Part shown: positions 44,959-62,377 of the stretch, in pieces
Position numbering within the stretch: position 1 is the first letter of the stretch
How the letters are laid out: every line of letters begins with the position of its first letter
DNA from: Candidatus Thiothrix anitrata
GTDB lineage: Bacteria > Pseudomonadota > Gammaproteobacteria > Thiotrichales > Thiotrichaceae
Length of the DNA stretch: 64,000 nt
Reading direction: 5' to 3'
NCBI RefSeq assembly: GCF_017901155.1
Contig: NZ_CP072800.1
Span: 833,283 to 897,282 of the forward strand
Program-made: the position numbers and the translations under genes
The notes under the pieces: generated by a model
Databases searched by the model: none
Told to the model about the DNA's origin: nothing
What the model saw: the letters and a program-made list of their open reading frames with translations, nothing else

Positions 44959-45081
44959 TCTATTCACTAGCTAGTGCAGGTAACGCAAAATATCAGTATT
45001 GCAATCGACGTAAGATAATGATTTTAATGAAATTCATTGCATATATTGCAAACTAGCACAGATTGACACCAGCCGATTTAT

Positions 45082-45102
45082 GGCATACAAGTAGGCATAC
45101 AA
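45082..45102 (+). repeat. Left subterminal GGCATACAA pair
   Basis: Two GGCATACAA copies 12 bases apart (45082 and 45094), followed by CGTATGCC and GTATGCC inverted copies up to the int start. They match the right-end pair at 62357-62377 and could be integrase arm sites or int operators. Confidence 0.75.
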
Positions 45103-45124
45103 AACAACGTATGCCAAGGACTGT

Positions 45125-46363
45125 ATGCCAACCATCACCAAACCACTGACACCTACCACCATCGGCAACTTGAAGCCCAAAACGAACCGTTACCCTAAGG
45201 CGGATGGCGGATGCACCGGGCTGTTTATCGAAGTCATGCCTTCAGGTTCAAAAATCTGGCGTTACCGCTATACCTTGAACGGTGAACGGCAATCCCCTGT
45301 TACGATTGGTAGTTACCCATCAATCACTATTGAGGCAGCGCGGGAACGTGGGCGCAAATACGCGGCAATGGTGGCGCAAGGCATTTCCCCAGTGACGGAT
45401 GCGAAAAAAGACCGTGGTGCAGCCCTTGCACTGGATACGGTCAAAGCATTTGGAGTGCATTGGTTTGAAACACAGATTGCGGATAAGTCAGAGGATTACC
45501 GCAAAACGACGTTACGCACACTGGAAAAAGATATTTACCCGATGATTGGCAACAAGCCGATGGGGGAAGTGATTTCCGGCGATGTGATGGCGATTTGCGA
45601 CAAGATCAAAGGTCGGGGTTCACCACAAGCGGCATTGTTGGCGCGTAATGTCATCAAGCGGATGTACGACTATGCGATTGTCCGGCAAGTGGCTTCTGTT
45701 AATCCCGCAAGGATGCTGATAGCGCGTTATGTTGCCACACAAAGCAGCCGTGAACGGGTATTGTCACCGGAAGAAATGGGTAAGGTGATGCGGGCAATTT
45801 ACCGTTCGGATATGCCCCGCCCTAACAAGTTGGCATTGCACCTGCTTTGCATCACGATGCTTCGTAAAAGTGAATTGATAAATGCTGAATGGTCAGAGTT
45901 CGATTTTGAGGCGGGTATCTGGCGCATTCCGGCAGTGCGGATGAAAATGGATAAAGAGCATTGGGTTTATCTGTCTACGCAAGCGGTCGGGATGTTCAAG
46001 GAACTGAAAGCGTTGGCTACCAGTGAGGTTTATGTTTTTCCGTCACGGCATGGGCGCGAAGACAAGCCTATCTGCAAATCCACTTTGAATCAGGCTATCA
46101 AGATGCTGGATACGGATGTGCAGCATTTTGTGTTGCACGACTTCCGGCGCACGGCTTCCACACACTTGCATGAAATGGGAATGCCTAGCGATGCCATAGA
46201 AAAGGCACTGGCGCACCAGATTGGGGGGATCAAGGGCGTTTACAACCGGGCGCAATATGGCGAAGAACGCAAAAAGCTGTTGCAGCTATGGGCGGATTTT
46301 GTGGATGCACAGATTGAAAACGGGCGCACATCCATCATCGGCAACTTTGCAAAATCGGAATAA
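45125..46363 (+). CDS. int: Tyrosine integrase (P4/DUF4102 type)
   Basis: 412 residues. The N-terminal DUF4102 arm-binding domain (about 1-90: LTPTTIGNLKPK, DGGCTGLFIEVMPSGSKIWRYRY, ITIEAARERG), a SAM-like core-binding domain (about 95-200), and the catalytic domain. Catalytic residues: Arg in MLRKSELINAEW (about 246), HDFRRTAS (about 337-344), His in ALAHQIGG and Tyr in GVYNRAQYG (about 372). It would recombine the 18-bp mnmE core. The gene lies 166 bases inside the left end. Repeats of GGCATACAA/GTATGCC overlap its promoter region and may autoregulate it. Confidence 0.95.
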   Translation: MPTITKPLTPTTIGNLKPKTNRYPKADGGCTGLFIEVMPSGSKIWRYRYTLNGERQSPVTIGSYPSITIEAARERGRKYAAMVAQGISPVTDAKKDRGAALALDTVKAFGVHWFETQIADKSEDYRKTTLRTLEKDIYPMIGNKPMGEVISGDVMAICDKIKGRGSPQAALLARNVIKRMYDYAIVRQVASVNPARMLIARYVATQSSRERVLSPEEMGKVMRAIYRSDMPRPNKLALHLLCITMLRKSELINAEWSEFDFEAGIWRIPAVRMKMDKEHWVYLSTQAVGMFKELKALATSEVYVFPSRHGREDKPICKSTLNQAIKMLDTDVQHFVLHDFRRTASTHLHEMGMPSDAIEKALAHQIGGIKGVYNRAQYGEERKKLLQLWADFVDAQIENGRTSIIGNFAKSE

Positions 46364-46373
46364 GGAGAGCGTT

Positions 46374-47030
46374 ATGGATGATGCTTGGCGTGAGCGTTCA
46401 AGGCAAATTAAGAGCCAATTTGCAGCAAGAGATGCCCTTACGGAGTTATTCCTAACCCGGAAAATTGTTGTGACCTATAGCGATGAAGAAGAGCGCGATA
46501 GGTTAAATGCCCAGCGTATGCAGGAAGCGAAACAACAACATGAACAAATTGCACAAATACTAGAGCCGTGTGGAAGCTGGGATGCAGGGGCAATTATTCA
46601 TTTGATTGAGCGGTTGCAGTACAAAGCAGAAAACATGATTTCCGAAGCGCGTGTGTTAGGAATGACAACAGAACCCAGTGTTTTGCTGCAATACGGTATC
46701 AGTAAGGATGATGTGGATACGGTTATCGCTGTCCATGAACATATCAGGAAATTGAAGGATGACGAACATACAGAAGTCAAAAGGAATATAACAAGCAATG
46801 CAGGCAAAAGGCGGCATGAAAAAGAAGAAGATATGGCTATCTCTGATTTAAAGCCATTGTATGAGCGGTTTATCTCACCAAACAACAAGATGCTTAATGT
46901 TAAGGGTAAAGTGATCCCGCGTGACCAATGGGGTGCAGAAACATTTTGTAAATTCTGTGAAGAGGCAAAAGCCGGATATGGAAAGAAAATGCTTAAGAAG
47001 GTCTATAAAGCCTTATCCTCTACAGCGTAG
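46374..47030 (+). CDS. Unknown helical island protein
   Basis: 218 residues from ATG 46374, with AAGGAG 8 bases upstream and 10 bases after int. It is mostly charged helix (EEERDRLNAQRMQEAKQQHEQIAQIL, KYKAENMISEARVLG-like, HIRKLKDDEHTEVKR), so coiled coils are likely. No membrane segment, no motif I recognise. It could be an int accessory factor by position only. The longer frame from 46221 overlaps int and is not used. Confidence 0.7.
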   Translation: MDDAWRERSRQIKSQFAARDALTELFLTRKIVVTYSDEEERDRLNAQRMQEAKQQHEQIAQILEPCGSWDAGAIIHLIERLQYKAENMISEARVLGMTTEPSVLLQYGISKDDVDTVIAVHEHIRKLKDDEHTEVKRNITSNAGKRRHEKEEDMAISDLKPLYERFISPNNKMLNVKGKVIPRDQWGAETFCKFCEEAKAGYGKKMLKKVYKALSSTA

Positions 47031-47123
47031 GGGCTAATCCTTTACATGGTATAGGGCTAACTGAGCCTGATTAATCGTTGATTTAATACAGCCATTGCAA
47101 CTAACCACAAGGATACACACGCA

Positions 47124-47357
47124 ATGGCAAACAAGCCCAAACAAGGCAAAACCACACCTGACGCATTACCGAAAACGGGGTATTCACGCTGGCAGCAACT
47201 AGAGCCGTTCATGCCGTTTTCGCGGGAAACATGGCGGTTACTGGTGCTGGATGGCAAAGCACCGAAACCGACCTACCTTAGTAAACGCTGCAAAATCTAC
47301 CCGAATGCGGAAGTACATAAATGGTTTACTGACCCGAAAAATTACCGGGCAAATTAG
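47124..47357 (+). CDS. AlpA-like DNA-binding protein (copy 1)
   Basis: 77 residues: TGYSRWQQLEPFMPFSRETWRLLVLDGKAPKPTYLSKRC then KIYPNAEVHKWFTDPKNYR. This is the winged-helix pattern of AlpA/excisionase-like proteins, with a recognition helix SRETWRLL and a wing near PTYLSKR. AlpA of P4-like elements activates int and promotes excision. A second copy with about 75 percent identity lies at 58698-58934. It starts a short rightward gene set with the winged-helix gene 2 bases further on. Confidence 0.85.
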   Translation: MANKPKQGKTTPDALPKTGYSRWQQLEPFMPFSRETWRLLVLDGKAPKPTYLSKRCKIYPNAEVHKWFTDPKNYRAN

Positions 47358-47359
47358 CC

Positions 47360-47938
47360 ATGAAGCCGCGTAAAGAAAGACCTAGTGCAAAATGGGGCAG
47401 AGGCGGTTTCAACGCCTTTCCTCATAGTGTGTTAGCTTCTGAAAAATTCGCAACATTATCGCCACAAGCAACCAAGTTACTGACTGATTTGTTATCGCAA
47501 TATCGTGGCAGCAATAACGGTGATTTGTGTGCAGCAATGAGCCTAATGGAACGGCGGGGGTGGAAGTCAAAAGCAGGTCTTGCTAACGCATTGAAAGGGC
47601 TTCTTGATACAGGATTTGTGATTTTGACCCGCCAAGGTGGAAGAAACAGCCCAAACCTGTACGCACTCAGTTTCTACGCTATTGATGACTGTCTGGACAA
47701 ACAAGGTTTCAGCAAGTTTGACCCTGATTTAGGTATCAAATCAGCAGCATCACCACGTAATGATTGGTTACGCGATACACCTGCACCTGACTTGGAAAAG
47801 GCGAAAGCAGAAGCCAAAAAGCTCAAGAAACAAACTGATATTATCGACTTGAAAAACCACTTGAAGGCAAACCCTAATGACAAATATGCCGACAACTACC
47901 GCAAGGCAATTGAAGAGTATGAACGACAAGCAAAATAA
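47360..47938 (+). CDS. Winged-helix protein, possible island replication initiator
   Basis: 192 residues. Residues about 15-110 form a winged-helix-like domain: FNAFPHSVLASEKFATLSPQATKLLTDLLSQY, RGSNNGDLCAAMSLMERRGW, then GFVILTRQGGRNSPNLYALSFYAIDDC. The C-terminus is charged helix (LEKAKAEAKKLKK, NYRKAIEEYERQAK). The four palindromes at 47947-48077 begin 8 bases after its stop, typical for an initiator acting on iterons beside its own gene. That role is inference; a transcription regulator is the alternative. It is coupled to the AlpA-like gene. Confidence 0.7.
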   Translation: MKPRKERPSAKWGRGGFNAFPHSVLASEKFATLSPQATKLLTDLLSQYRGSNNGDLCAAMSLMERRGWKSKAGLANALKGLLDTGFVILTRQGGRNSPNLYALSFYAIDDCLDKQGFSKFDPDLGIKSAASPRNDWLRDTPAPDLEKAKAEAKKLKKQTDIIDLKNHLKANPNDKYADNYRKAIEEYERQAK

Positions 47939-47946
47939 AATTCCTG

Positions 47947-48077
47947 CCCCACATTTGGGGCAATTGCTTTCTGATTACCCCGTATTTGGGGCAATGGGAA
48001 TAAGGCTAATGCACTCATTGCCCCACATTTGGGGTAGTCAGGCGATTTCAGGGATTTTCCTTGCCCCATATTTGGGG
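47947..48077. repeat. Four helically phased 14-bp palindromes (iteron-like)
   Basis: CCCCACATTTGGGG at 47947, CCCCGTATTTGGGG at 47978, CCCCACATTTGGGG at 48021 and CCCCATATTTGGGG at 48064, all in the same orientation. Starts are 31, 43 and 43 bases apart, close to 3, 4 and 4 helical turns. An AT-rich TTTATATATA follows at about 48081. Confidence 0.9.
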
Positions 48078-48142
48078 TGCTTTATATATAAGCCATCTAT
48101 CCCTGATATTTTGGCTGTGTATCAACAGATTTGAGGTGTTTT

Positions 48143-48763
48143 ATGCGATACAAACACGACCGGCACACTGAGCAACATTCAGCGTTCCAAATGAATGCGG
48201 TGGCAGCAGAAACCTACCGCGATTCATCGGGGCATGATGGTTGTGCGGAATTGACTATGATGGAAGATGCAGAGGAAATAGCCAGCGGCAATCTGTCGAG
48301 CATTGATGGGCGTTTGATAGCACAAGCCGTCACGCTGGATACGGTGTTTACGGAATTGCTTGGACGGGCGCATACCGCGATGAGCTACGGCAGTGAGGGA
48401 GTAGTCGGTGCAGAACGCTATTTACGGTGGGCATTCAAAGCACAAGCGCAATCAGCTAACACCATGAAGATTCTGGTAGAGATGAAACAGCCGAAAAGCA
48501 TCACGATTGCTAATCAGGCGAATATTGCACGTAACCAAATTGTGACCACTCACCCCCCTACTATGGACAATCACACACGCGGAAATTTGCAGGCTGATGG
48601 TGGGGGTGTAAAAATGCCAAACGAACTAATACAAATCGGGGATATTGACCATGCCACGTTGGACACCAGAAGCGCGGGAACTCCATTCAATTTTGATGAA
48701 AACCAAGATACGGCTATGGCAACCGTGGCGGCAATCAACAGGCGCAAAAACAACGGAAGGTAA
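48143..48763 (+). CDS. Unknown island protein
   Basis: 206 residues from ATG 48143 (GAGG 6 bases upstream). It starts MRYKHDRHTEQHSAFQMNAVA. The central helix region has LDTVFTELLGRAHTAMSYGSEGVVGAERYLRWAFKAQAQSANTMKILVEM, then PKSITIANQANIARNQIV. This pattern occurs in conserved hypothetical proteins next to the STG-type protein below, but I know no function. Its last 113 bases overlap the next gene in another frame, so both depend on the same DNA there. Confidence 0.75.
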   Translation: MRYKHDRHTEQHSAFQMNAVAAETYRDSSGHDGCAELTMMEDAEEIASGNLSSIDGRLIAQAVTLDTVFTELLGRAHTAMSYGSEGVVGAERYLRWAFKAQAQSANTMKILVEMKQPKSITIANQANIARNQIVTTHPPTMDNHTRGNLQADGGGVKMPNELIQIGDIDHATLDTRSAGTPFNFDENQDTAMATVAAINRRKNNGR

Positions 48764-48899
48764 GGCGCGTAGTTCCCGCAATGCCTACAAGCACGGTTGC
48801 TGTTCACAAGAATCTATCCAGATGATGCGGGAGGTTCGGGAAATGATTCGACACAACAACCAAGCGTTTCAACGCATGGGGCAAACGGATTTCTGGTAG
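48651..48899 (+). CDS. Small STG/EGKARSS-motif protein
   Basis: 82 residues from ATG 48651. Conserved pattern: PRWTPEARELHSILM, then WQPWRQSTGAKTTEGKARSSRNAYKHGCCS, a motif (PWxxSTGxxTxEGKARSSxNAxKHG) shared by many small bacterial and phage proteins of unknown role. It is strongly basic, so nucleic-acid binding is possible. It overlaps the preceding gene by 113 bases. The motif makes this frame real in spite of the overlap. Confidence 0.75.
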   Translation: MPRWTPEARELHSILMKTKIRLWQPWRQSTGAKTTEGKARSSRNAYKHGCCSQESIQMMREVREMIRHNNQAFQRMGQTDFW

Positions 48900-48959
48900 A
48901 CTCTTTGCCATACAACACCCTTCCGGGAAAACCTTGCCGACTGATTGCGAGTATCAACC

Positions 48960-49508
48960 ATGATCGACGAAAAGCCGCGTAAAACGCTGTCTATCACGCG
49001 CAAGTCTGCCAGCTCTACGGCACAGGCAGAAAATGACGGCAACGCGCCTACGGGCATCAAGCGCACCGGAAAGCGCATCATTACCCGTGAGCAATTGCCA
49101 GATGTGCAGAAACCCGGCATACCCAAGAAACCGCCTAAAAAGCCCAACAAGCCAACGCAGGGTAAACGCCCACGGCAATCGCTAAAACCCAAGAAAACGC
49201 CGCCTAGCGAATTACGGGCGTGTGAATTGAATGATTCGCTGAATGGGTTTGCGGTGTGGCTTCAGCGTCAACCGTTGGCGTTGGGGATCGAAAAGCAGGT
49301 ATTTCGCTACATTGCCGATCATCACTTGAGTGCATCCAAACGGGTGGTGCAACGCTTGCTGTATGCTCATACGCACCGACGTGACTACTTGCAAGCGGTG
49401 GCAGCGGGCGGGATGCGTTACGGGTTGGATGGGCAGGAAGCCGAAGCGATTACGGCAGCAGAATGTGATTATGCAGGGCAGATGCTGGCAAGCTCTTCCC
49501 TGTTGTAG
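48960..49508 (+). CDS. ProQ/FinO-family RNA-binding protein
   Basis: About 182 residues. The N-terminal 85 residues are disordered and rich in Lys, Pro and Thr (KPGIPKKPPKKPNKPTQGKRP). The C-terminal ProQ/FinO domain (about 90-175) has LALGIEKQVFRYIADHHLSASKRVVQRLLYAHTHRRDYLQAVAAGGMRYGLDGQEAEAIT. The family binds structured small RNAs and 3' ends; FinO controls plasmid transfer through FinP. On an island it may regulate element genes or a small RNA, but no partner RNA is identified. ATG 48960 is preferred over TTG 48945. It precedes hsdM by 76 bases. Confidence 0.8.
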   Translation: MIDEKPRKTLSITRKSASSTAQAENDGNAPTGIKRTGKRIITREQLPDVQKPGIPKKPPKKPNKPTQGKRPRQSLKPKKTPPSELRACELNDSLNGFAVWLQRQPLALGIEKQVFRYIADHHLSASKRVVQRLLYAHTHRRDYLQAVAAGGMRYGLDGQEAEAITAAECDYAGQMLASSSLL

Positions 49509-49584
49509 GCTACTTCTTAGCTGTTGCTGCATTTTCGTCTGCAATCGCGTATATATAAACCTCCTTCATTTTGACTTATGCCCC

Positions 49585-51801
49585 ATGTCCGAAAACACCC
49601 TGAACAACCACAGTGATCTTGTCTGGAAAATTGCCGAAATACTCCGTGGTACTTATCGTCCACCGCAATACCGCCGGGTAATGATCCCCATGATCGTGTT
49701 GCGCCGTCTGGATTGTGTGTTGGAGGCAACGCGGGAACAGGTAAAAACCGAGCTTGCCAAATCAATTTACCAGTCCATGCCGCCCGCCAAGGTGGAAGAA
49801 ACCATCAATAAAAAGCTAGGGATTCCCTTCCACAATAATAGCGATTTCAGCTTCAAGAAATTGTTGGATGATGCGGACAAGTTGGAAACCAACCTCAATA
49901 AATTCATTAGCAGTTTCTCGCTGACGGCGCGGCGCATTCTGGAAAAATTCGAGTTCGATAAGGAAATCACCAAGATGGAAGATGCCAACCGCCTATACGA
50001 GGTGGTCAAGGCATTTGCCGATATGGATTTGCACCCCGACCGCCTCAGTAATCTGGAAATGGGTTACATCTTTGAGGATTTGGTGCGGCGTTTCAACGAA
50101 CAGGCGAATGAGGAAGCCGGGGATCACTTCACCCCCCGCGAAGTCATCAACCTGATGGTGAATCTGGTGTTTGCCAGCGGTGGCGATCAGGATACGACGT
50201 TTGAAGACAGCAAGCGCATCACGGTATATGACCCGACGTGTGGAACGGGGGGAATGCTGTCCGAGGCGGAAAAGTTTATCAAAGCACTGAATAATAAAGC
50301 TGAAGTGCATTTATTTGGGCAGGAGTACAACGCCGAATCTTACGCTATCTGCGGTTCTGACTTGATGATTAAGAACGAGCCAACCCAAAACATTGTCTAC
50401 GGTGACACCTTGGGTACGGGGCGTTCTAAGCCGGACAGTGATTTTGTGGATGGTGATGGGCATCCTAACCAGAAATTCCATTACCTGCTGGCGAATCCGC
50501 CGTTTGGGGTGGAGTGGAAGAATCAGCAGAAGCATGTCACAGACGAATACAAAACAGGCGGTTTTAACGGGCGTTTCGGGGCGGGTTTGCCGCGTATCAA
50601 TGATGGGGCGTTGCTGTTTTTACTGCACATGATTTCCAAGATGCGCCCGGTAACGAATAAGGATAATGGGGCGCGGATTGCGGTGGTGTTCAATGGTTCG
50701 CCCTTGTTTACCGGCGATGCGGGCAGCGGTGAAAGCAATATCCGCCGCTGGATCATAGAAAATGATTGGCTGGAGGCAGTGGTGGGTTTGCCCGACCAAT
50801 TGTTTTACAACACTGGCATTTATACCTACGTGTGGATTTTGAGCAATAACAAAGCCCCAGCGCGGCTCGGCAAGGTGCAACTGATTAACGCCACCCAGTT
50901 CTTTGTCAAAATGAAAAAGAGTTTGGGCAATAAGCGCAATGAAATCGGCAATGGGCAAGGTAACAAACCCGACCATATCGCGGAAATCACCCGCATTTAC
51001 AACGATTTCAAGGATGATGATACCCGTGTGTTGGCGGCGGGTGAAAAGGCGGTGAAAGTCAGCAAAGTGTTCCGCAATCAGGATTTTGCTTATCTGAAAC
51101 TGACGGTGGAGCGTCCGTTACGCTTGAATTTCCGCGTGGATGATGAACGACTCCAGCGTTTTATGCGGGGCAGTTATTTCGTCGGTTTGCCCTATTCCAG
51201 CAAGCGCGTGGATTTGAAAGGGCAGCAAGCGGATATTGCGGCGGGTAAGGCGCGTCAGGCAGAAATTTTGTCCGTGCTGGTGGGGATGAAGGCAGCATTT
51301 GCCGACGGTCAGTTGGTGCGGGATCGTGCCGAATTCAGCAAGCAACTGAAAGCCGCGTTTACCAAGGCAGACGTGAAAACCGATGCGGCGTTATTGAAAG
51401 CCCTACTATTACCGAATGCGTTGGGGGAACGTGACCCACAAGCGAAACCTTGTATTGCCAGCCTTGGCGGGTTTGAGCCTGACCCTGAATTGCGCGATAC
51501 CGAACAAGTGCCGCTGCCTGCGGCTATAGCGTTACCTTTGCCTATCGGTTACGACGAAAAGGACAGCAAGGCGAAACTGATTGCTTTGGTCAAGGTGCAT
51601 TGCAATGACTACCTCAAACGTGAAGTGTTGCCGTACCGTGCGGATGCGTGGATTGATTTTGAAAAGACCAAGATCGGTTATGAAATCCCGTTTACCCGCC
51701 ATTTCTACGAGTACCAAGCTCCGCGTCCGCTGGCGGTGATTGGGCAGGAAGTCAAAGAGCTTGAAGCCGAAATTGCACGGATGCTGGAAGGAGTCATTTA
51801 A
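49585..51801 (+). CDS. hsdM: Type I restriction-modification system, methyltransferase subunit
   Basis: 738 residues from ATG 49585 (MSENTLNNHSDLVWKIAEILRG). HsdM N-terminal helical domain (about 1-170), then the N6-adenine methylase domain. SAM motif DPTCGTGGMLSEAE (about 216) and catalytic motif IV LANPPFGVEWKN (about 302, NPPF). It is longer than typical 500-residue HsdM because the C-terminus (about 500-738) carries an extra domain, ending EVKELEAEIARMLEGV. With HsdS it methylates the target site. Its stop overlaps the hsdS start (TAATG). A longer frame from 49330 overlaps the ProQ gene and lacks family similarity. Confidence 0.95.
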   Translation: MSENTLNNHSDLVWKIAEILRGTYRPPQYRRVMIPMIVLRRLDCVLEATREQVKTELAKSIYQSMPPAKVEETINKKLGIPFHNNSDFSFKKLLDDADKLETNLNKFISSFSLTARRILEKFEFDKEITKMEDANRLYEVVKAFADMDLHPDRLSNLEMGYIFEDLVRRFNEQANEEAGDHFTPREVINLMVNLVFASGGDQDTTFEDSKRITVYDPTCGTGGMLSEAEKFIKALNNKAEVHLFGQEYNAESYAICGSDLMIKNEPTQNIVYGDTLGTGRSKPDSDFVDGDGHPNQKFHYLLANPPFGVEWKNQQKHVTDEYKTGGFNGRFGAGLPRINDGALLFLLHMISKMRPVTNKDNGARIAVVFNGSPLFTGDAGSGESNIRRWIIENDWLEAVVGLPDQLFYNTGIYTYVWILSNNKAPARLGKVQLINATQFFVKMKKSLGNKRNEIGNGQGNKPDHIAEITRIYNDFKDDDTRVLAAGEKAVKVSKVFRNQDFAYLKLTVERPLRLNFRVDDERLQRFMRGSYFVGLPYSSKRVDLKGQQADIAAGKARQAEILSVLVGMKAAFADGQLVRDRAEFSKQLKAAFTKADVKTDAALLKALLLPNALGERDPQAKPCIASLGGFEPDPELRDTEQVPLPAAIALPLPIGYDEKDSKAKLIALVKVHCNDYLKREVLPYRADAWIDFEKTKIGYEIPFTRHFYEYQAPRPLAVIGQEVKELEAEIARMLEGVI

Positions 51802-53168
51802 TGGACTACCCCGCGTATCCCGTCTACCGCGAATCCGGCATCGAATGGCTCGGCAAAATCCCCGACCATTGGGAATTAAAAAAATTTCGCTTTTTATTTT
51901 CCTTTGGTAGGGGGTTGGGAATAACAAAGGAAAATTTGTTAGATGAAGGTGTGCCATGTATTAACTATGGAGAGATTCACTCAAAATATGGATTTGAGGT
52001 TATTCCTGAAAAGCACCCGCTAAAATGCGTTACTCCAGACTATTTGGAAACTGGCACTAGCTCACTATTAAGTGCTGGAGATTTTATTTTTGCTGATACA
52101 TCGGAAGATATTGAGGGTTCAGGTAACTTCTCGCACTTAAATAGTGATATACCTACCTTTGCTGGTTATCATACAGTCATAGCCAGACCGATTTCTAATG
52201 ATTTTCCTCGCTACATAGCTTATCTTTTTGATTCTTTGCCTTATAGATTCCAAATAAGAAAAACTGTATCAGGTGTCAAAGTATTCAGCATTACTCAAGC
52301 AATTTTGAAAAACTGTTATTTATGGCTACCTAAAAAAACAGAACAAATTCAAATTGCCCAATTCCTTGACCACAAAACCCAGCAAATCGACCAGCTTCTT
52401 GCCAAGAAACAAACCCTGATCGACAAGCTCAACGAGCAGCGGATTGCACTGATCACCCATGCCGTGAGCAAAGGCTTGAACCCTGATGTAACGCTGGAGG
52501 ATTCCGGCGTGGAGTGGCTGGGGGAAGTGCCGGAGCATTGGGAAGTTGTAAAACTTTCTTATCGCTATGAAGTTCTATTGGGAAAAATGCTGGATGATAA
52601 AAGAATAACGGGTGACTTCTTGGGCGAATACCTGAGAAATACCGATGTCCAGTGGGGCAGAATAAACTATGAGAGCTTGCCTCAAATGGATTTTCGCCCA
52701 GATGAGTATGAGCGTTACTCCATAAAAAAAGGAGATTTAGTCGTTTGTGAAGGTGGCGAGATTGGACGGTGTGCAATATGGGAAAGAGAAACACCATGTT
52801 TCTACCAGAAAGCATTGCATCGTTTACGGCCTGTTGATCCCAAAAACGATAATGCCCGATTTATGTTTTACGTCTTGTTCGATGCAGTTCATCAAGAACG
52901 ATTCATTAATGGGGCAAGTAAAGCAACGATAGCACATCTTCCCGCAGAAACATTTCGTCAGTATCGCTTTGCATATCCACCGATGATAGAGCAACGGGAA
53001 ATTGTTGAGTATTTGGATAGGGAGACGGTGCGGATTGATCGGATGGTGGAGTTGAATCAGCAGACGATTGATAAGCTCAAGGAGTACCGGACTGCGCTGA
53101 TTACGGCAGCGGTCACGGGTAAGATTGATTTGCGGACGTGGCAAAAGATGGAAACCAAAGGGGCGTGA
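51801..53168 (+). CDS. hsdS: Type I restriction-modification system, specificity subunit
   Basis: 455 residues with two target recognition domains, each followed by a conserved helix. TRD1 is about 10-170 (ESGIEWLGKIPDHWELKKFRF), helix QIQIAQFLDHKTQQIDQLLAKKQTLIDKLNEQRIALITHAVSKGL (about 185-230). TRD2 is about 235-410 (DSGVEWLGEVPEHWEVVKL), helix EIVEYLDRETVRIDRMVELNQQTIDKLKEYRTALITAAVTGKID. This symmetry gives a bipartite recognition sequence that cannot be read from the gene. The AT content of the TRD1 middle differs from its neighbours, as is usual for swapped TRDs. The stop is followed by the antitoxin-like gene within 3 bases. Confidence 0.95.
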   Translation: MDYPAYPVYRESGIEWLGKIPDHWELKKFRFLFSFGRGLGITKENLLDEGVPCINYGEIHSKYGFEVIPEKHPLKCVTPDYLETGTSSLLSAGDFIFADTSEDIEGSGNFSHLNSDIPTFAGYHTVIARPISNDFPRYIAYLFDSLPYRFQIRKTVSGVKVFSITQAILKNCYLWLPKKTEQIQIAQFLDHKTQQIDQLLAKKQTLIDKLNEQRIALITHAVSKGLNPDVTLEDSGVEWLGEVPEHWEVVKLSYRYEVLLGKMLDDKRITGDFLGEYLRNTDVQWGRINYESLPQMDFRPDEYERYSIKKGDLVVCEGGEIGRCAIWERETPCFYQKALHRLRPVDPKNDNARFMFYVLFDAVHQERFINGASKATIAHLPAETFRQYRFAYPPMIEQREIVEYLDRETVRIDRMVELNQQTIDKLKEYRTALITAAVTGKIDLRTWQKMETKGA

Positions 53169-53171
53169 GTG

Positions 53172-54185
53172 ATGGCTAAAGACTTAACAAACTCAGTGGT
53201 TGAACGGCAAAATATCTTAAACAATCACTATGCCCTAACCAAGGCTGAAGAACATCTTGGATTGGGAGGTATAGAGTTTAAAGGTGAGTATGTTTTCACC
53301 AAGCAACAGGTGATGGAATTATTTGCTATCAGCGATACAACGGTAGAACGCTATATCGTAGCGCATGGTGAAGAACTGAGAAGTAACGGTTACATACTCC
53401 TTAAAGGAAAAAATCTTAAGGAATTCAAGGAATTATGTAATGTCTCCTTCATTAATGAAGGTAACAAAGTACCCATGCTAGGGCTGTTCAACTTCCGTGC
53501 CGTGCTAAATTTAGCCATGCTGTTGACCGAAAGCGAACGAGCGAAAGCTATCCGTAGTCGCTTGCTGGATATTGTACTAGATGTGTTGGCTGAGCGAGTG
53601 GGTGGAAAAACAACTTATATCAACCAACGTGATGAACATTATCTGCTAGCCGCTTATCAGGAAGAGGGATACCGCAAGCAGTTCACCGACGCGCTGGATA
53701 ATTTTGTCGAAGGTAATCAGTACAAATATGGGCGTTTTACCAATCTTATTTATCAAAGCATCTTTCGTGAAAATGCGGCTGAATACCGCCAGATTTTGAA
53801 TCTCAATGAACATGATGGTACACGAGAAACCATGTATTCCGAGGTTTTGACCCTGATCGCTAGTTATGAATCCGGTATCGCCCATGAGCTTGAACGTGAA
53901 TCCCAACGTCTTGGACGCAAGTTGACCCAAAAAGAAACAACTGCCCTATTCAAAACCTTTGAAGCACATCCATTATTCAAACCGTTGATGCTGGATGCTC
54001 GTACCAAAATGGCGAGCCGTGACTTATGTTTTCGGGATGCGTTGCATCAACGCCTTGAGGCTTATATCCAGTCGGTTCCTCAAGGCGACTTTGAGCGGTT
54101 TCTGGGAGAAACCAGCAAGTCGCTAGAGGAACGCTTGAATGACCCGGAAACCTTGGCAGTATTCAAGCGTTTGAAGGATCGTTGA
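53172..54185 (+). CDS. DNA-binding protein paired with Doc toxin, probable antitoxin
   Basis: 337 residues from ATG 53172 (AAGGGG 8 bases upstream). N-terminus: helix-turn-helix-like GEYVFTKQQVMELFAISDTTVERYIVAHGEELRSNGYILLKGKNLKEF. The second part has GLFNFRAVLNLAMLLTESERAKAIRSRLLDIVLDVLAERVGGKTTYI, similar to the regulators found beside type I restriction genes and Fic/Doc toxins. It lies between hsdS and the Doc gene, one base from the latter. I infer an antitoxin or autoregulator role; a RhuM-like role is the alternative. Confidence 0.7.
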   Translation: MAKDLTNSVVERQNILNNHYALTKAEEHLGLGGIEFKGEYVFTKQQVMELFAISDTTVERYIVAHGEELRSNGYILLKGKNLKEFKELCNVSFINEGNKVPMLGLFNFRAVLNLAMLLTESERAKAIRSRLLDIVLDVLAERVGGKTTYINQRDEHYLLAAYQEEGYRKQFTDALDNFVEGNQYKYGRFTNLIYQSIFRENAAEYRQILNLNEHDGTRETMYSEVLTLIASYESGIAHELERESQRLGRKLTQKETTALFKTFEAHPLFKPLMLDARTKMASRDLCFRDALHQRLEAYIQSVPQGDFERFLGETSKSLEERLNDPETLAVFKRLKDR

Positions 54186-54186
54186 G

Positions 54187-54636
54187 ATGGATGACTTGCC
54201 CATTTTCTACTTTGATCTTGCCCATGCCATTGAGGTTCACGATTGGATTATTGAACATTCGGGTGGTTTGCACGGAATACGTGACTTGAATCCACTGGAA
54301 AGCGTTCTCGATCATATCCAGAATGATGGCTACTATCCGGGCATTATCCCAAAATTGACCCACTTGGTATTTTCTATCAACAAGTTCCATGCCTTCAATG
54401 ATGGTAACAAACGTTCCAGCATTGCTTTGGGAACGTTTTTTCTGGCGTTAAATGGCTATGATTATTGCATCAAGAAGTTCGTGCTGGAAATGGAAAATAT
54501 GGCGGTTTGGGTAGCTGATGGCAAGATTGGCAAAGACTTGCTAGAGCGTATTATTGAGTCCATTTTGCTGGAAACAGATTATAGTGAAACACTCAAACTG
54601 GAAATTCTGGATTGTTTACAACGAGGGCAAGCCTGA
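54187..54636 (+). CDS. doc: Death-on-curing (Doc/Fic) family toxin
   Basis: 149 residues. Doc signature: GIRDLNPLESVLDHIQND and the catalytic loop HAFNDGNKRSSIALGTFFLALNGY (HxFxDGNKR, about 70-80). Phage P1 Doc phosphorylates EF-Tu; relatives AMPylate targets. The full motif is present, so it should be active and need its antitoxin. Its stop overlaps the hsdR start (TGATG), so it is translated as part of the restriction operon. Confidence 0.92.
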   Translation: MDDLPIFYFDLAHAIEVHDWIIEHSGGLHGIRDLNPLESVLDHIQNDGYYPGIIPKLTHLVFSINKFHAFNDGNKRSSIALGTFFLALNGYDYCIKKFVLEMENMAVWVADGKIGKDLLERIIESILLETDYSETLKLEILDCLQRGQA

Positions 54637-57600
54637 TGCCAGCCGGAAAGACCCATACCGAAGACCGTTTTGAAGCTGCCATCGAAGCGGATTTGCTGGA
54701 ATTGGGCGGTTATGTTCCCGATGACAATCCTTATGACAAGGCTTACGCCTTCAAGCCCGATAGCGTCCTACGTTTCATCGAAGCGACGCAACCTAAACAA
54801 TGGCAGGCATTTCAGCGCATCCACTCTGACAACAGTCGCAAGCATCTGCTGGAAAGCCTGCACAAAGAGCTTGCCAATAAGGGCATGTTGCACGTCCTAC
54901 GCCACGGTTATAAGTGTTTGGGCAAGCCATTTCGAGTTGCCTACTTCGCTCCCAATAACCAACTGAACCCAGATACGTGGAAGCTGTACGCTGAAAATCA
55001 CCTCAGTGTCACCCGCCAGCTTTATTTCAGTGAACAGGACAGCAAATCACTGGATATGGTGCTGTTCCTGAATGGTTTACCCATTGCTACGCTGGAACTT
55101 AAAAATGAAATGTCGGGTAGTGAAACGGTAGAGAATGCGAAAAAGCAGTACAAAGAAGATCGCAACCCCAAGGAATTGCTGTTTACCTTCAAACGGCGGG
55201 CATTGGTGCATTTTGCAGTGGATACCACTCAGGTTTACATGACCACCGAACTGAAGGGAAAACAGACCCATTTCCTGCCGTTCAATCGTGGGTACAAACA
55301 CGGGGCAGGTAATCCCCCGGTTGAAAATGCGTATGCTACGGCTTATTTGTGGCGTGAGGTGTTAGCGCGTGACAGCCTGTTGTCGATTCTCGGCAAATTC
55401 ATGCACCTGCAAGTGGAAGAGAAAAAGCTGTATAGCCCGACAGGGATTACCCGCATTCAGAAAGAAATGCTGATTTTCCCGCGTTATCACCAACTGGATG
55501 TGGTGCGTAAATTGGTTGCCCATACCCGTGCTGTGGGTGCGGGGCGTAATTACCTGATTCAACATTCTGCCGGTTCGGGGAAATCCAATTCCATCGCGTG
55601 GTTGGCGCATCATCTGGCAAGTTTGCACAATGCAGCGGATGAAAAGATATTCGATACCACCATAGTGGTCACAGACCGGCGGGTACTGGATCAGCAGTTA
55701 CAGAAAACCATCTACCAGTTTGAACACAAGGAAGGGGTCATCAAGCGCATCGACGAAAATACTCGCCAATTGGTAGATGCACTGACCAGCCACACTCCAA
55801 TAATTATTTGCACCTTGCAGAAATTCCCGTTTGTAGTCGAAACCATCGACAAGCTCAACAAAGAAAATGCTGAACAAGTCGATGGTGATAAAGGGGCTTA
55901 TCAGCCGTTGCAGTGGAGTACCAAGGGCAAACGCTTTGCCGTGATCGTGGATGAGGCGCACAGTTCCCAAACGGGTGAAAATGCGATGGATTTGAAAGGT
56001 ATCCTCAATCAGGAGGGTATTCAGGAAGCCGCCAAGCAGTACCTAGAAGCACATTACGATGAATATGGCGATGTAGAAGGCGATATTGACCCGCTGGAAT
56101 CGGCTGTGCGTACCATGATGAAACGCGGTAAGCAGGAAAACATCAGTTTTTTCGGCTTTACCGCCACCCCCAAATACAAAACCAAGTATATCTTTGATGA
56201 GCCGGGGGTCAGTGGTAAAGCACCGTTTCACGAATACACCATGAAACAGGCGATTGAAGAGAAATTCATCCTTGATGTGTTGGCGAATTACACCACTTAC
56301 GACACGTTTTACCAGCTCAAACTGAAAAGCGAAGATGACCCGGAAGTGGTGCGAACCCCGACCACCAAGGCATTGATGCGTTTTGCGTCCTTACACCCAA
56401 CGGTCATCCAGCAAAAAACCGAAATCATCATTGAACATTTCCGCCAACACGTCCGGGCTAAAATCGCGGGACGTGCCAAGGCGATGGTGGTGACGGAATC
56501 ACGCTTACACGCGGTACGCTACAAACGCGCTTTTGATGCTTACATCCAGAAAAAAGGCTACACCGACGTGCGTACCTTGGTTGCCTTTTCGGGTACGGTC
56601 AATGATAAGGATATTCCCGGCAGCAGCTTTACCGAAGTGCAAATGAACAAGGGCATCAATGAACAGGAATTACCGGAACAATTCGATAGCAATGAATATC
56701 AAGTATTGTTGGTGGCAGAAAAATACCAGACTGGTTTTGACCAGCCGTATCTGCACACCATGTACGTGGATAAGTGCCTGTCCGGGATTCAGGCAGTCCA
56801 AACCCTGTCACGCCTGAACCGAACCTGTGCGGGCAAAACCGATACCTTTGTGTTGGATTTCAGGAATAAGACCGACGACATCTACAAGGCATTCAAACCC
56901 TTTTATGAAGTCACCCAAGCAGAAGATTTGCTGGATGCGCACAAGCTCTATAACTTGCAGCATCAGGTGATGGAATACTGTTTATTCACAGTGGATGATA
57001 CCTTGAGTTTTTACCGCTGCTTTGACCCGCTCAAAGATAAAATCAACCCGAAAGACCACGCGAAAATGAATAGCTTGCTAGACAAGGCTGTCGTGCGTTT
57101 TTGTGCATTGGAGGAAGCCCAACAAAATCAATTCAAAAGCCAGTTGGTCAATTTCCGCAATACCTACGCTTTTCTGTCACAAGTGATCCCGTTTCAAGAT
57201 CAAGAACTGGAAATGTTGTACGTCTATGCCCGCTTTTTGCTAACCAAACTGCCACGCCGACCCTTTGTCGATACCGAGAGGGTTGATGATCTGGTTGACC
57301 TTGAATTTTATCGTGCTGAGAAGCAGGAAGCACAGCGCATCCAACTGAATGACGGCAAAGAGGCTGACCCACTGAAAGCACCCACCGATGTGGGAACAGG
57401 GGGCGGTAAAGATGAACGGGTTGCCCTTTCGCGCCTGATTGACTTGCTGAATGAGCGTTTCGGTGGTGATTTTACCCAAGCGGATGAGCTTTTCTTCAAC
57501 CAGATTCAACAGCAGGCAGTAGAAGATACTACCCTGCAACAAGCCGCTAAGGTCAACAGCTTCGAGGACTTCAAAAGCCTACTGAAAGAAGCTTTGAATG

Positions 57601-57755
57601 GGCTAATTGTCGAGCGCATGGATGACAATGAAGCCCTGTTTGCCCGTATGATGGCTGACGATGAATTCAACTCAACCGCTTTCGACTGGATGGCAGAGCG
57701 GATTTATCGGCAACTGGATAAGCCGGATAGCGGGGATGATGATCAGACAGATTAA
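54636..57755 (+). CDS. hsdR: Type I restriction-modification system, endonuclease/translocase subunit
   Basis: 1039 residues from ATG 54636. PD-(D/E)XK nuclease near the N-terminus: VLFLNGLPIATLELKNEMSG (about 145-165). SF2 helicase: QHSAGSGKSNSIAWLAHHL (Walker A, about 308), TTIVVTDRRVLDQQLQ, VDEAHSSQTG (DEAH-like, about 437), FFGFTATPKYKT, AEKYQTGFDQPYLHTMYVDK, VQTLSRLNRTCAGK. It cuts distant from the site after ATP-driven translocation on unmodified DNA. The start overlaps the Doc stop. All motor and nuclease motifs are intact, so the system should restrict DNA. Confidence 0.95.
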   Translation: MPAGKTHTEDRFEAAIEADLLELGGYVPDDNPYDKAYAFKPDSVLRFIEATQPKQWQAFQRIHSDNSRKHLLESLHKELANKGMLHVLRHGYKCLGKPFRVAYFAPNNQLNPDTWKLYAENHLSVTRQLYFSEQDSKSLDMVLFLNGLPIATLELKNEMSGSETVENAKKQYKEDRNPKELLFTFKRRALVHFAVDTTQVYMTTELKGKQTHFLPFNRGYKHGAGNPPVENAYATAYLWREVLARDSLLSILGKFMHLQVEEKKLYSPTGITRIQKEMLIFPRYHQLDVVRKLVAHTRAVGAGRNYLIQHSAGSGKSNSIAWLAHHLASLHNAADEKIFDTTIVVTDRRVLDQQLQKTIYQFEHKEGVIKRIDENTRQLVDALTSHTPIIICTLQKFPFVVETIDKLNKENAEQVDGDKGAYQPLQWSTKGKRFAVIVDEAHSSQTGENAMDLKGILNQEGIQEAAKQYLEAHYDEYGDVEGDIDPLESAVRTMMKRGKQENISFFGFTATPKYKTKYIFDEPGVSGKAPFHEYTMKQAIEEKFILDVLANYTTYDTFYQLKLKSEDDPEVVRTPTTKALMRFASLHPTVIQQKTEIIIEHFRQHVRAKIAGRAKAMVVTESRLHAVRYKRAFDAYIQKKGYTDVRTLVAFSGTVNDKDIPGSSFTEVQMNKGINEQELPEQFDSNEYQVLLVAEKYQTGFDQPYLHTMYVDKCLSGIQAVQTLSRLNRTCAGKTDTFVLDFRNKTDDIYKAFKPFYEVTQAEDLLDAHKLYNLQHQVMEYCLFTVDDTLSFYRCFDPLKDKINPKDHAKMNSLLDKAVVRFCALEEAQQNQFKSQLVNFRNTYAFLSQVIPFQDQELEMLYVYARFLLTKLPRRPFVDTERVDDLVDLEFYRAEKQEAQRIQLNDGKEADPLKAPTDVGTGGGKDERVALSRLIDLLNERFGGDFTQADELFFNQIQQQAVEDTTLQQAAKVNSFEDFKSLLKEALNGLIVERMDDNEALFARMMADDEFNSTAFDWMAERIYRQLDKPDSGDDDQTD

Positions 57756-58087
57756 CGGTCAAGCCTTAATTGTTATACACTGATGGCAAGCCCTGCTGTC
57801 CACGAAGCCTTAAGTTCCACTTGGGATACGTTTCACCTCTGTGAAACATAGTGGCAGCGGGGTTATTTCCTCGCTCATGTCTTCCCATCAAGAACCAATC
57901 AAGAAAATACACCGTAAAAACAGCCTTAACTCATTGATTTTTGGCTATCTGGTTGAATGTTGATCATTTTGAATCAAAACACGATCAAGAAATTTCATTC
58001 ATGCCCAACTGGGATGAAATCGCCTTTGCTTCGTGCTGTGTCATAACAAGATATAACAGAATTTGCCTAAATTCAGCCATTAGGTGA
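57756..58087. other. Non-coding gap with inverted repeats
   Basis: No gene is supported. GTTTCAC-CTCT-GTGAAAC (57830-57847) is a perfect 7-bp inverted repeat, and TTTTGAATCAAAA (57967-57979) another. They are candidate operators before the next gene set. Confidence 0.5.
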
Positions 58088-58369
58088 TTGCAGCGCGGCG
58101 AATTCTGCCCTATCCTAAAAAAGCAGCCCGACCAACGGGCAGCAACTGCAAAATTCTGGGACTGTTATACCCATCTTTGGCGGCAATACCGCCACAGCGA
58201 CGCAGGCGGTTTTTTTACGCCTGTAGACTACGCATCATCGGTTTTGCCGGGTATGCGTGGACTACAACACCGCTTCGGCGGAAAGAAGCGCGTCGTTTTC
58301 CAAAGAGACGATAACAGTACCCGGCAACTTTGCCCAATGTTAAAACTTTCTTTGGAGAATCAGCGATGA
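58088..58369 (+). CDS. Possible Ash/Icd-like small ORF
   Basis: A 93-codon frame in which the pieces QRAATAKFWDCYTHLWRQY, DYASSVLPGMRGLQHRFGGKK recall the Ash/Icd-like ORFs of P4-type elements. A second frame (58084-58314) overlaps it, and the DNA also forms hairpins (GCCCGACCAACGGGC near 58127), so the strand may act mainly as an RNA (as the P4 CI RNA region does). I see no good ribosome site. It overlaps the next gene by 4 bases. Confidence 0.3.
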   Translation: MQRGEFCPILKKQPDQRAATAKFWDCYTHLWRQYRHSDAGGFFTPVDYASSVLPGMRGLQHRFGGKKRVVFQRDDNSTRQLCPMLKLSLENQR

Positions 58370-58701
58370 ACGCTAACCCTATGGGCGCATTGCGTCCTGC
58401 ACATGGCTATCTGCCCGCCTTCCCGCGTGTGCCAACAGCCGCACGTAAACCCAAAAAACGCCCGCTTACCTATCGCCGTACCGATACCGGCTTGATTGCC
58501 TACCATCACCGCCAACCCGTTGCATGGATCGTGCAAGGCTACCATTCAGGTCAATTGAACCAACAGCCGAAAACCTGCCATTTTGTCGATGTGGCATACC
58601 ACCGCCAAACCACCCACGGCATCAACCTTGAAACCGCCGATTTTGAGACAGTCACGCAAGCCGTCACCTTCATCAATGGCGTGTTTGGGGGTGCTGCATG
58701 A
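58366..58701 (+). CDS. Unknown 111-residue island protein
   Basis: ATG 58366 with GGAG upstream. N-terminus rich in Pro/Arg/Lys (PRVPTAARKPKKRPLTYRR), then TGLIAYHHRQPVAWIVQGYHSGQ and HFVDVAYHRQTTHGINLETADFETVTQAVTFINGVFGG. It is probably soluble. The function is unknown. Its stop overlaps the start of the second AlpA-like gene (ATGA); it opens a run of ATGA-coupled genes to 60075. Confidence 0.7.
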   Translation: MNANPMGALRPAHGYLPAFPRVPTAARKPKKRPLTYRRTDTGLIAYHHRQPVAWIVQGYHSGQLNQQPKTCHFVDVAYHRQTTHGINLETADFETVTQAVTFINGVFGGAA

Positions 58702-58934
58702 AAACCCATACACCCGCCCCCCAATTGCCCAACACAGGCTATTCACGCTGGCAACAACTTGCCCCATTCATGCCCTTTTCACGCGAAACATGGCGGTTAT
58801 TGGTCAAAGCAGGCAAAGCCCCCCAGCCGACTTACCTTAGCAAACGCTGCAAAATCTACCCGAATGCGGAAGTGCATCGCTGGTTTGCTGACCCCAACAA
58901 TTACCGCACCCAACGGCAAGGGGGTGAAGCATGA
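58698..58934 (+). CDS. AlpA-like DNA-binding protein (copy 2)
   Basis: 78 residues, clearly a paralogue of 47124-47357: TGYSRWQQLAPFMPFSRETWRLLVKAGKAPQPTYLSKRC then KIYPNAEVHRWFADPNNYR. The differences are mostly in the N-terminal 12 residues and the tail (QRQGGEA). Two AlpA copies in one island suggest either duplication or two nested elements with separate excision or replication control. It is coupled at both ends by ATGA overlaps. Confidence 0.85.
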   Translation: MKTHTPAPQLPNTGYSRWQQLAPFMPFSRETWRLLVKAGKAPQPTYLSKRCKIYPNAEVHRWFADPNNYRTQRQGGEA

Positions 58935-59803
58935 GCCTTGCCCGTGATTTGATTGATGCAGCATTGGCAGCGGATTTGACGCAAAACGAATTGCGCGTCT
59001 TCCTTGCCCTGTTCCGCCAAACGCTATGCTACGGCAAAACCGCCGACCCTTTGAACATGAAGCGATTGGCAACCCTAACCGCCATCCGTAAAGATCGGCT
59101 TGCCCCGGCGATTGCTGGCGTAACCGACAAAGGTTTGTTTGCGGCGCAACCTCACCCCGCGTTTGAGTTTGAATACCGCATCCCGGCGGATTTTCTCGCA
59201 GCGTACCCCGATGGTTTTTTTGTGCCTGCCCTTCCAAAAAACGGGGAGGCTTTCCGTTTTTCGGGCGAAACTTCCGAAAAATGGGAACATACATCTATAT
59301 ACCTTACTTCCTCTAACCTTACCCCTACCACTACCCCGCCGCCGGAAATTCCCCCAACGGATGCTAGTCGCCGTGGTGATTTGTCAGTCAACAGCGAAGC
59401 GCAAGCCTTGCCCTATCCTGCCAGTTTTGGCAAGCAAGGGCGCAAATCCGCCGCCCGCATTCTCGACGGTTTGACCCCGGACAATGCCCGCGATTGCCTG
59501 CTGTTGCTTTCCAGTGCGATGGATGCAGGAAAAGTAAAATCCCCCTTGGGCTATTTGCACCAACTCGCACAAGCCGCCCGTGGCGGTACGCTGGATTGCA
59601 GCGCATTACAGGCACACCAGCAAGCCGCGCAAAACCGTACCGATACCGAGCGCACCGCCCAATTACGCGCCTTGCTGGATGATATACGCGGGCTGGATGC
59701 ACTGTTTGCCCATGCGGGAATGCCAATGGATGCCATCACCGCAGCCAAACGCGCCGTATTGATTGCCGAATACAACGCCATCCGGCAGGCGGTGCAAGCA
59801 TGA
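58931..59803 (+). CDS. Winged-helix replication-type protein
   Basis: 290 residues. The N-terminal part (about 5-90: DLIDAALAADLTQNELRVFLALFRQTLCYGKTADPLNMKRLATLTAIRKDRLAPAIAGVTDKGLF) resembles the winged-helix domain of phage replication protein O. A Pro/Thr-rich linker follows (TPTTTPPPEIPPTD), then a helical C-terminus (RILDGLTPDNARDCLLLLSSAMDAGKVKSPLGYLHQLAQAARGG), reminiscent of primase/helicase-loader tails. A role in island replication is inferred. It overlaps both neighbours by four bases. Confidence 0.65.
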   Translation: MSLARDLIDAALAADLTQNELRVFLALFRQTLCYGKTADPLNMKRLATLTAIRKDRLAPAIAGVTDKGLFAAQPHPAFEFEYRIPADFLAAYPDGFFVPALPKNGEAFRFSGETSEKWEHTSIYLTSSNLTPTTTPPPEIPPTDASRRGDLSVNSEAQALPYPASFGKQGRKSAARILDGLTPDNARDCLLLLSSAMDAGKVKSPLGYLHQLAQAARGGTLDCSALQAHQQAAQNRTDTERTAQLRALLDDIRGLDALFAHAGMPMDAITAAKRAVLIAEYNAIRQAVQA

Positions 59804-60075
59804 ATAACCTAACCGCTTTGCTTGCTGCTGTTGAATGGGATGTGGTGTATCAGACCATCGGCAAACTGTTAACGCTGTTGGCTTGCTTGTATTGCTGCTA
59901 CGTCATGGGTAATTACGGGTATGCCTTGGGTTTGCTGTCTGCTTTGCTATTGGCGGGATCATCCACCCTGCTTTGCTTGTTTTTTACCGCATTCACTTGG
60001 GCTTTCATTCGAGTTGAACCGGGTAAAAGCCTGATCGGCATTATTGGCGCGGTTTGCGCCGCAATGGTGGTGTGA
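59800..60075 (+). CDS. Small integral membrane protein
   Basis: 91 residues with three hydrophobic stretches: LLTLLACLYCCYVMGNYGYALGL, LSALLLAGSSTLLCLFFTAFTWAF and LIGIIGAVCAAMVV. It looks like a three-helix inner-membrane protein. No family recognised. It is coupled to the winged-helix gene (ATGA) and ends 8 bases before the larger membrane protein, so the two may form a complex. Confidence 0.7.
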   Translation: MNNLTALLAAVEWDVVYQTIGKLLTLLACLYCCYVMGNYGYALGLLSALLLAGSSTLLCLFFTAFTWAFIRVEPGKSLIGIIGAVCAAMVV

Positions 60076-60083
60076 GGTGCAAC

Positions 60084-61457: not shown

Positions 61458-61568
61458 TTCATCAACAATGGGGGCGGGTAGTGATGCCTTGCCCCTGCAA
61501 ATAGGGTTTACCCATGTTAGAGACTCAAACACCCATCAAAAACCCTCTAAATAGGGTTTATTTTATAG

Positions 61569-61590
61569 TTTTTAGATGGTATTCTAAAAA
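61569..61590. promoter_or_regulatory. Inverted repeat before the recombinase gene
   Basis: TTTTTAGA and TCTAAAAA separated by TGGTAT, followed by further TTAGA half-sites (61593-61612). Direct repeats AAATAGGGTTTA at 61499 and 61550 lie upstream. A likely res-type binding site or operator for the recombinase. Confidence 0.65.
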
Positions 61591-61625
61591 CACTTAGAGC
61601 TTATTTAGAAGATTAGGGGGAATTT

Positions 61626-62177: not shown

Positions 62178-62180
62178 AGC

Positions 62181-62318
62181 ATGGACATTAACGAAATGGC
62201 TGATAAGGTCATGGGTATACTTCGCAAGCTGGAAGAAGACACCAAAGAAGCAGCGAAGGAGGGGGCGCAATCGCCCCCGGAACAACCGAAAGAGTCAGAA
62301 AAGCCGGAAAATGCTTGA
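62181..62318 (+). CDS. 45-residue charged protein after the recombinase
   Basis: MDINEMADKVMGILRKLEED, then TKEAAKEGAQSPPEQPKESEKPENA. A short acidic helix plus a disordered tail. The start lies 3 bases after the recombinase stop, with AGAGGC upstream, so it is likely translated. The DNA has a 7-bp hairpin (GGGGGCG/CGCCCCC, 62261-62278) without a U tract. No known function. Confidence 0.5.
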   Translation: MDINEMADKVMGILRKLEEDTKEAAKEGAQSPPEQPKESEKPENA

Positions 62319-62356
62319 AAGTGACTTTAAGCTATTGGCATACAAGATGGCATACA

Positions 62357-62377
62357 AGCCACGTAAGCTTTATTCAA
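62357..62377 (+). repeat. Right subterminal GGCATACAA pair
   Basis: Two GGCATACAA copies 12 bases apart (62357, 62369), 38 bases inside the right att copy. Matches the pair at 45082-45102. Confidence 0.8.

Follow-up and report, generated by a model that had tools for sequence, protein, structure and literature searches.

The segment at positions 47947-48097 of the 64,000-nucleotide stretch of Candidatus Thiothrix anitrata DNA analysed here (hereafter, the window) is, judging from comparative sequence analysis, most likely an origin of replication (oriV) that belongs to an integrative mobile element, with the 192-aa protein encoded upstream of it as its initiator. The four palindromes in this segment would very probably be docking sites for this replication-starting protein of the island itself, and the module as a whole appears to be one of a broad, seemingly undescribed group found in Proteobacteria. 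The hallmarks of an iteron-type origin that are seen here are the repeated candidate initiator sites beside an initiator-like gene and the adjacent AT-rich region of low stability. The proposed role of the 192-aa winged-helix protein (47360..47938, forward strand) draws on a structural model, weak family similarity, and covariation between the protein and the sites.

Four sites and a box within an integrated island

The sequence-only reading had pointed to four 14-bp sites with start-to-start spacings of 31, 43 and 43 bp, placed directly after a winged-helix gene and before an AT-rich tract, and each of these particulars was reproduced. The sites occupy positions 47947-47960 (CCCCACATTTGGGG), 47978-47991 (CCCCGTATTTGGGG), 48021-48034 (again CCCCACATTTGGGG) and 48064-48077 (CCCCATATTTGGGG), all on the forward strand; the stop codon of the 192-aa gene precedes site 1 by 8 bp, and site 4 abuts the AT-rich tract (48078..48097, forward strand; TGCTTTATATATAAGCCATC), the putative melt box, i.e. 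the DNA unwinding element, for which the family weight matrix reads tACACCTTTaTAg..nTACCA. The GC content of this tract is 30% (48079-48098) as compared to 48.6% for the island. The only exact matches to the CCCCNYATTTGGGG sites in the 3.55-Mb genome are these four: the exact pattern CCCCNNATTTGGGG has no further copy on either strand of the 3,546,315 bp, with one match for the backward control, and no site was found, at up to two mismatches, between the box and the right end of the island.

In a comparison of 95 genomes, the own genome included, the 192-aa gene was found in two others, both of the same genus (G008 and G009), with 94% and 91% identity. Lack of conservation of the sites or of their spacing in related islands had been named as what would speak against the proposal; both same-genus islands that were found retain the four sites, with identical spacings, and the same AT tract. 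The further claim that all sites share one orientation has little meaning for near-palindromes: site 1 of G008 reads the other way round (CCCCAAATACGGGG), which is what a site that acts as a palindrome would allow. In G009, the DNA similarity ends just after the box (GCTTTATATATAAGCCATCT) and resumes at the ProQ gene, with the DNA of the 206-aa ORF in between showing no match; hence, the gene, the array and the box look like one module, with the next gene outside it.

The island that carries the module comprises ~17 kb (about 45080 to 62358), lies ~120 bp downstream of mnmE and is bounded by a 12-bp direct repeat, the two copies of which, at 45080..45091 (ATGGCATACAAG) and 62347..62358, both on the forward strand, are the presumed left and right attachment sites. 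From left to right, the island contains genes for a tyrosine integrase (45125..46363, forward strand; Pfam Phage_integrase, 1.3e-26), an ORF without assignment, a 77-aa protein of unassigned function (47124..47357, forward strand) and the 192-aa protein, then the four sites, the AT-rich box, the 206-aa ORF, a gene for a ProQ/FinO-domain protein, a cluster of type I restriction-modification genes that includes a Fic gene, and a right block with a Phage_rep_O protein and a resolvase. The 77-aa gene occupies the position of the AlpA genes in some relatives; a Pfam search with its product gave no match, AlpA included. Among the ORFs of the island that were scanned, none was recognisable as a primase or a replicative helicase, and no repeat family of at least three copies was found near the second Phage_rep_O-like gene of the island (58931-59803).

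Several other features of the island were observed along the way. The DNA of the 77-aa gene (47165-47347) seems to be duplicated at 58726-58906, as the copies of one in the relatives align with the other at 82-84%; the right-hand copy adjoins the Phage_rep_O (PF04492) protein. The right block is common to G008 and G009, and much of the middle cargo is not. The ProQ/FinO-domain gene (48960-49508) overlaps the start of the HsdM ORF, and the Fic gene (54187-54636) sits within the type I restriction-modification cluster. The sequence CCCTNNAAATAGGGTTTA occurs twice (61493-61510 and 61543-61560) upstream of the resolvase gene (61626-62177) and is, possibly, the operator of the resolvase itself. The sole Rfam match in the island is the DUF3800-VIII RNA (57787-57866; 51.1 bits, gathering threshold 40.2).

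The 192-aa protein and its covariation with the sites

In an AlphaFold (AF2) model of the 192-aa protein, made without DNA (pLDDT 88.8), a helix at residues 71-84 immediately precedes a two-stranded wing and is taken here as the putative recognition helix, with residues 71-72 at its start; beyond the winged helix, the model contains only two extra helices, 145-170 and 177-191. The window protein has no match in Pfam or NCBIfam and a single, marginal one in PHROG, to a family without known function (0.14). Members of the set A4, which comprises P0001 and 79 of the 82 filtered proteins, have PHROG matches headed by a DnaD-like entry (32/80) and two replication-initiation families (22/80 and 19/80). 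RepA_N is not among the 13 Pfam families matched by members of the set A2; Pfam MarR_2 is matched by 3 of 15 members (best 5e-4). The best profile match in the PDB is a RepA_N initiator (E 0.005), followed by the MarR-type ZitR regulators (0.008), and the top Foldseek matches are RepA_N N-terminal domains, including a Rep-DNA complex (best E 3.6e-3, none below 1e-3), with PLE RepA, DnaD and many transcription regulators lower in the list. These weak profile and fold matches point to the RepA_N/DnaD/phage-O initiators, and the protein is described here as RepA_N-like, not as a member of RepA_N.

A winged-helix protein on iterons could also serve segregation, the four sites being then a centromere-like partition site of the TubR/tubC type. 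This is very unlikely: tubC uses iterons, and TubR is present among the lower-ranked fold matches (4asn, rank 43), but neither the window ORFs that were scanned nor the downstream Pfam families listed (25 of 64) included a recognisable filament-forming partner, and a low-stability box that ends an array is a feature of origins.

The proposed pairing of the initiator with its iterons is supported indirectly by the covariation of the two. The set used consists of 77 protein-iteron pairs, namely the 80 rows of A4 minus three low-scoring loci. Mutual information with the iterons is highest for residue 72, followed by residues 71, 93, 73 and 68, and every one of the eight strongest residue-position pairs involves one of these five residues. 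After correction for overall identity, the pair 71-72 ranks first among 133 adjacent pairs (r 0.26), and it is also first among the protein pairs that are less than 50% identical (r 0.23). Inspection by eye shows that the residues at these two positions go with particular half-sites: CACG accompanies Arg-Asp in 7 of 8 rows, all 8 rows with Lys-Asp have GACCCG or GCCCCG, and TACG is present in all 9 rows where Pro or Glu precedes Asp or Glu. In a version of the test that employed raw 18-mers and compared residues 66-73, a range chosen after the mutual-information result, with the rest of the protein, residues 102 and 56 came out on top; the signal of residue 102, where the column is nearly invariant, is probably an artefact, and residue 56 remains without explanation. 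On the whole, these patterns of covariation suggest that the iterons are bound by the neighbouring protein family.

The box and the array in relatives

Homologues of the 192-aa protein are present in 18 of 369 genomes of the class and, by profile search, in 26 of 398 sampled genomes of the phylum, the own genome being included in both counts; a single-protein scan of viral contigs yielded 19 pattern matches and no relatives among them. The sequence-only reading had suggested a search for the motif next to homologous genes. When this search was run, the geometry turned out to be conserved far more widely than in the same-genus islands, and the iteron sequence did not: the relatives from Pseudomonadota share the layout, with the array after the gene and then the melt box, and differ in the sequence of the repeats, and in some of them the iterons lie partly or wholly within the 3' end of the gene. 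The DNA after the gene was taken from 80 genome loci (the best 80 of 234) and 36 IMG/VR loci; L033, L046 and L051 are repeats of L013, L020 and L019, and L025 and L173 are one locus. The remark that no described iteron has this sequence is consistent with the open-access literature searched, in which no description of the 192-aa protein family or of the melt box was found either; given that the iteron sequence is element-specific among the relatives, the absence of a described match for CCCCNYATTTGGGG is to be expected.

In nearly all of these loci, element-specific repeats are followed by ACACCTTTATAG..TACCA, the conserved plan of the box being ACACCT, an AT-rich stretch, and TACCA. A regular expression for this plan matched 78 of the 80 genome loci (best 80 of 234), which are not a blind test because the expression was written after reading the genome downstream sequences, and 35 of the 36 IMG/VR loci, which were unread before the test but include near-duplicates. 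The corresponding controls gave, for the genome loci (best 80 of 234) and the viral loci, respectively, 13/80 and 6/36 matches on the reverse strand, 15/78 and 3/35 upstream, and 15.4 and 5.6 in shuffles. After dropping three low scorers, 76 genome loci (best 80 of 234) and 34 viral loci remain, the latter forming 23 groups at 80% identity; thus, the 113 matches minus L056, L099 and L122 (low score), plus the window, make up the 111 loci considered below. L056 has a box-like sequence missed by the regular expression. In the first class set (L013-L031), the box is present in 17 of 19 loci, and among the loci of the phylum search (L166-L173) it is matched in 6 of 8, in one case well inside the gene; a recognised box is absent from the distant homologues L025, L031, L172 and L173, and also from the Cupriavidus locus L008, where the repeats are present. 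A phage-annotated element, vB_Pae_U1, has the box together with GGTACAGAAACTGTACC repeats. The least stable 12-bp window of 600 bp falls at the box in 79 of the 111 loci, a result that is partly built in, since the regular expression demands A/T.

The reverse test started from the box: a strict form, CACCTTTATA-N2-7-TACCA, was searched in 369 genomes and found at 15 places in 14 genomes (6 in the backward control). Of the 14 places inspected, 4 are known rep loci and 10 have no array within 140 bp, so this search gave no sign that the box is shared with other initiator families; the strict box recovers no more than 4 of the 18 rep-bearing genomes, which makes the test an insensitive one.

The sequence-only reading had left the choice between a replication origin and a cooperative operator, and the former fits the sequences well, whereas the latter fits poorly. 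If the protein on the four sites controlled the downstream genes, the TTTATATAT box would be the -10 region of a promoter; in favour of this are the likeness of the box to a -10 element, the winged-helix nature of the protein, the resemblance of some family members and fold matches to transcription regulators, and the first downstream gene of the window, which is co-directional and whose small cluster is represented in 6 of 114 loci. Nevertheless, an operator or promoter appears improbable. No sigma-70-like site is found in 46900-48300, with 2.4 expected, and the box is anywhere between 15 and 19 nt long (C[CT] to CCA, 111 loci) while its ends, ACACCT and TACCA, are conserved, which would be more in keeping with an unwinding element recognised at its two ends than with a -10 hexamer. 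Furthermore, the first downstream ORF (ORFs being called mechanically) lies on the other strand at 36 of the 114 loci, there is no general downstream gene family, the largest cluster being that of 13/114 loci, and G009 keeps the sites and the box although the DNA of the window's downstream ORF has no match there.

The array itself has a recurrent geometry. In 109 of the 111 loci, the 18-mer that adjoins the box is found again upstream, with 318 copies at up to 6 mismatches versus 22.0 expected, a statistic that, like the phasing, is inflated by shared ancestry; downstream of the box, 14 copies were found versus 15.4 expected (111 loci), and, in the absence of a downstream excess, the array is one-sided. 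A further copy is located at -43..-45 bp in 81 of the 111 loci and at -34 in 15, and exactly four copies (up to 5 mismatches, within 140 bp) are present in 61. The claim that the spacing is close to whole helical turns gained support at the level of the family: the copy distances favour 10.6-10.8 bp per turn, and the phasing at 10.2-11.0 bp over 42 distinct layouts reaches R 0.67, as compared to a maximum of 0.34 in 5,000 simulated draws that ignore kinship; with each distinct distance taken once (n=31), R is 0.53 at 10.5 bp. Distances of 44, 54, 87, 96, 109, 118 and 131 are near whole turns, and those of 34, 67, 77-78 and 99 fit less well. An array of transcription terminators, suggested by sites 1 and 4 passing a scan for terminator-like structures (3 matches, 1.8 expected), is the least credible of the readings, as it would leave the helical register, the conserved box and the covariation with protein residues unexplained, and the dyad symmetry is weak in the repeats of some relatives (0.4-0.5 of positions in L034 and L120).

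The genes around the array bear on yet another reading, namely that it is a packaging (cos/pac) site or a site of recombination control (excisionase arm sites) of a satellite-like element. Some relatives adjoin capsid, protease or portal genes. Among 145 ORFs downstream of the array, from 51 of 114 loci, 5 match Phage_capsid and 2 match N6_Mtase (Pfam). With PADLOC, the downstream ORFs gave matches to several models of restriction-modification and of other defence systems. There is also an integrase gene nearby; the BLAST cluster of the integrase is present in 60 of 114 loci, nearly always upstream, and one A2 member weakly matches a head-maturation-protease PHROG (0.008). Yet the array adjoins an initiator-like gene and is ~2.9 kb away from the nearer attachment repeat, no terminase was recognised by Pfam in the window ORFs scanned, and there is no packaging family among the 16 PHROGs matched by A4 members, which makes a role in packaging or recombination hardly probable. 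In one relative, L009 (PP003913.1), a CDS annotated as DNA primase (4221-4826) overlaps part of the iterons and the box (~4292) and, hence, may be misannotated.

Comparison with known replicons and implications

The closest parallels to the proposed origin come from satellites and phages. In the Vibrio cholerae PLE replicon, an integrated satellite likewise encodes a winged-helix initiator that acts on semi-palindromic iterons, and the RepA_N domain and the origin covary between elements, but RepA has a conserved C-terminal domain, the iterons are three and of ~30 bp, the integrase is a large serine recombinase, and replication needs the phage ICP1 (PMC7145576, PMC8263062). Here, the conserved part of the protein is little more than a DNA-binding domain, the integrase is of the tyrosine type, the iterons are shorter, typically four, and mostly 43-45 bp apart at the box end, and the box is conserved; the N-terminal domain of PLE RepA (4ro3) ranks 47th in the fold search. 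The origins of Gram-negative PICIs are also located directly 3' of the initiator gene, with iterons beside an AT-rich region, an integrase gene upstream and, as in some relatives here, AlpA; they are described as having iterons in two sets, one to either side of the AT-rich region, and a pri/rep module (PMC6092414), whereas in the window the iterons are on one side only. Of the PICI gene set int, alpA and primase, the window island has the integrase, with no Pfam match to AlpA and no primase recognised; for PICMI and helper-embedded PICI satellites, primase-based replication is described.

The lambda origin resembles the array in its iterons, which are four imperfect inverted repeats, in the AT-rich tract that comes after them, and in an initiator of the O-like class, but the lambda iterons are inside gene O (PMC7466680), whereas the window array comes after the stop codon, with a spacing of ~43 bp, and its AT box is a sequence conserved across elements. 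The RepA_N plasmid initiators of Firmicutes (pSK41, pTZ2162; 4pt7, 4pql, 5kbj), which use semi-palindromic iterons, are the best fold and profile matches, but the matches are weak, the host phylum is different, and no RepA_N C-terminal domain was recognised; in the RepA_N initiators, this is a separate domain, proposed to have host-specific functions. The iterons of RepA_N plasmids are usually within the rep gene.

The following sequence of events can be envisaged. After excision, dimers of the initiator would occupy the four iterons along a single face of the DNA, bend or wrap the segment, and melt the TTTATATAT box, whereupon a replicative helicase would be recruited from the host or a helper phage. 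Since the box is kept while the iterons change completely, it may be recognised in single-stranded form, either by the initiator or by the helicase loader of the host; sequence-specific binding to one strand of the unwinding element is known for plasmid Rep proteins (PMC4081077). With the iteron sequence of each element presumably matched to residues 71-72 of its initiator, co-resident elements would be spared cross-firing.

We would give an even chance to the broader view that these modules represent a single, apparently unnamed replicon type spread across the mobile islands of Pseudomonadota, with a minimal, mostly one-domain initiator, the first two recognition-helix residues of which set the iterons by a readable code, typically four helically registered iterons, and a near-universal conserved melt box. 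A RepA_N initiator in a Gram-negative element has been called surprising, the family being rare there (PMC7145576); the group described here looks like a large and diverse proteobacterial counterpart to RepA_N that resides in integrated elements, some of them with restriction-modification or capsid genes. For annotators, it would offer a signature by which the origins of many "hypothetical" islands can be recognised in the sequence, and predict which islands share initiator specificity, so that, if the code is true, the incompatibility groups of such elements would be predictable from sequence, and the natural series of initiator-iteron pairs would lend itself to the study of how recognition specificity evolves.
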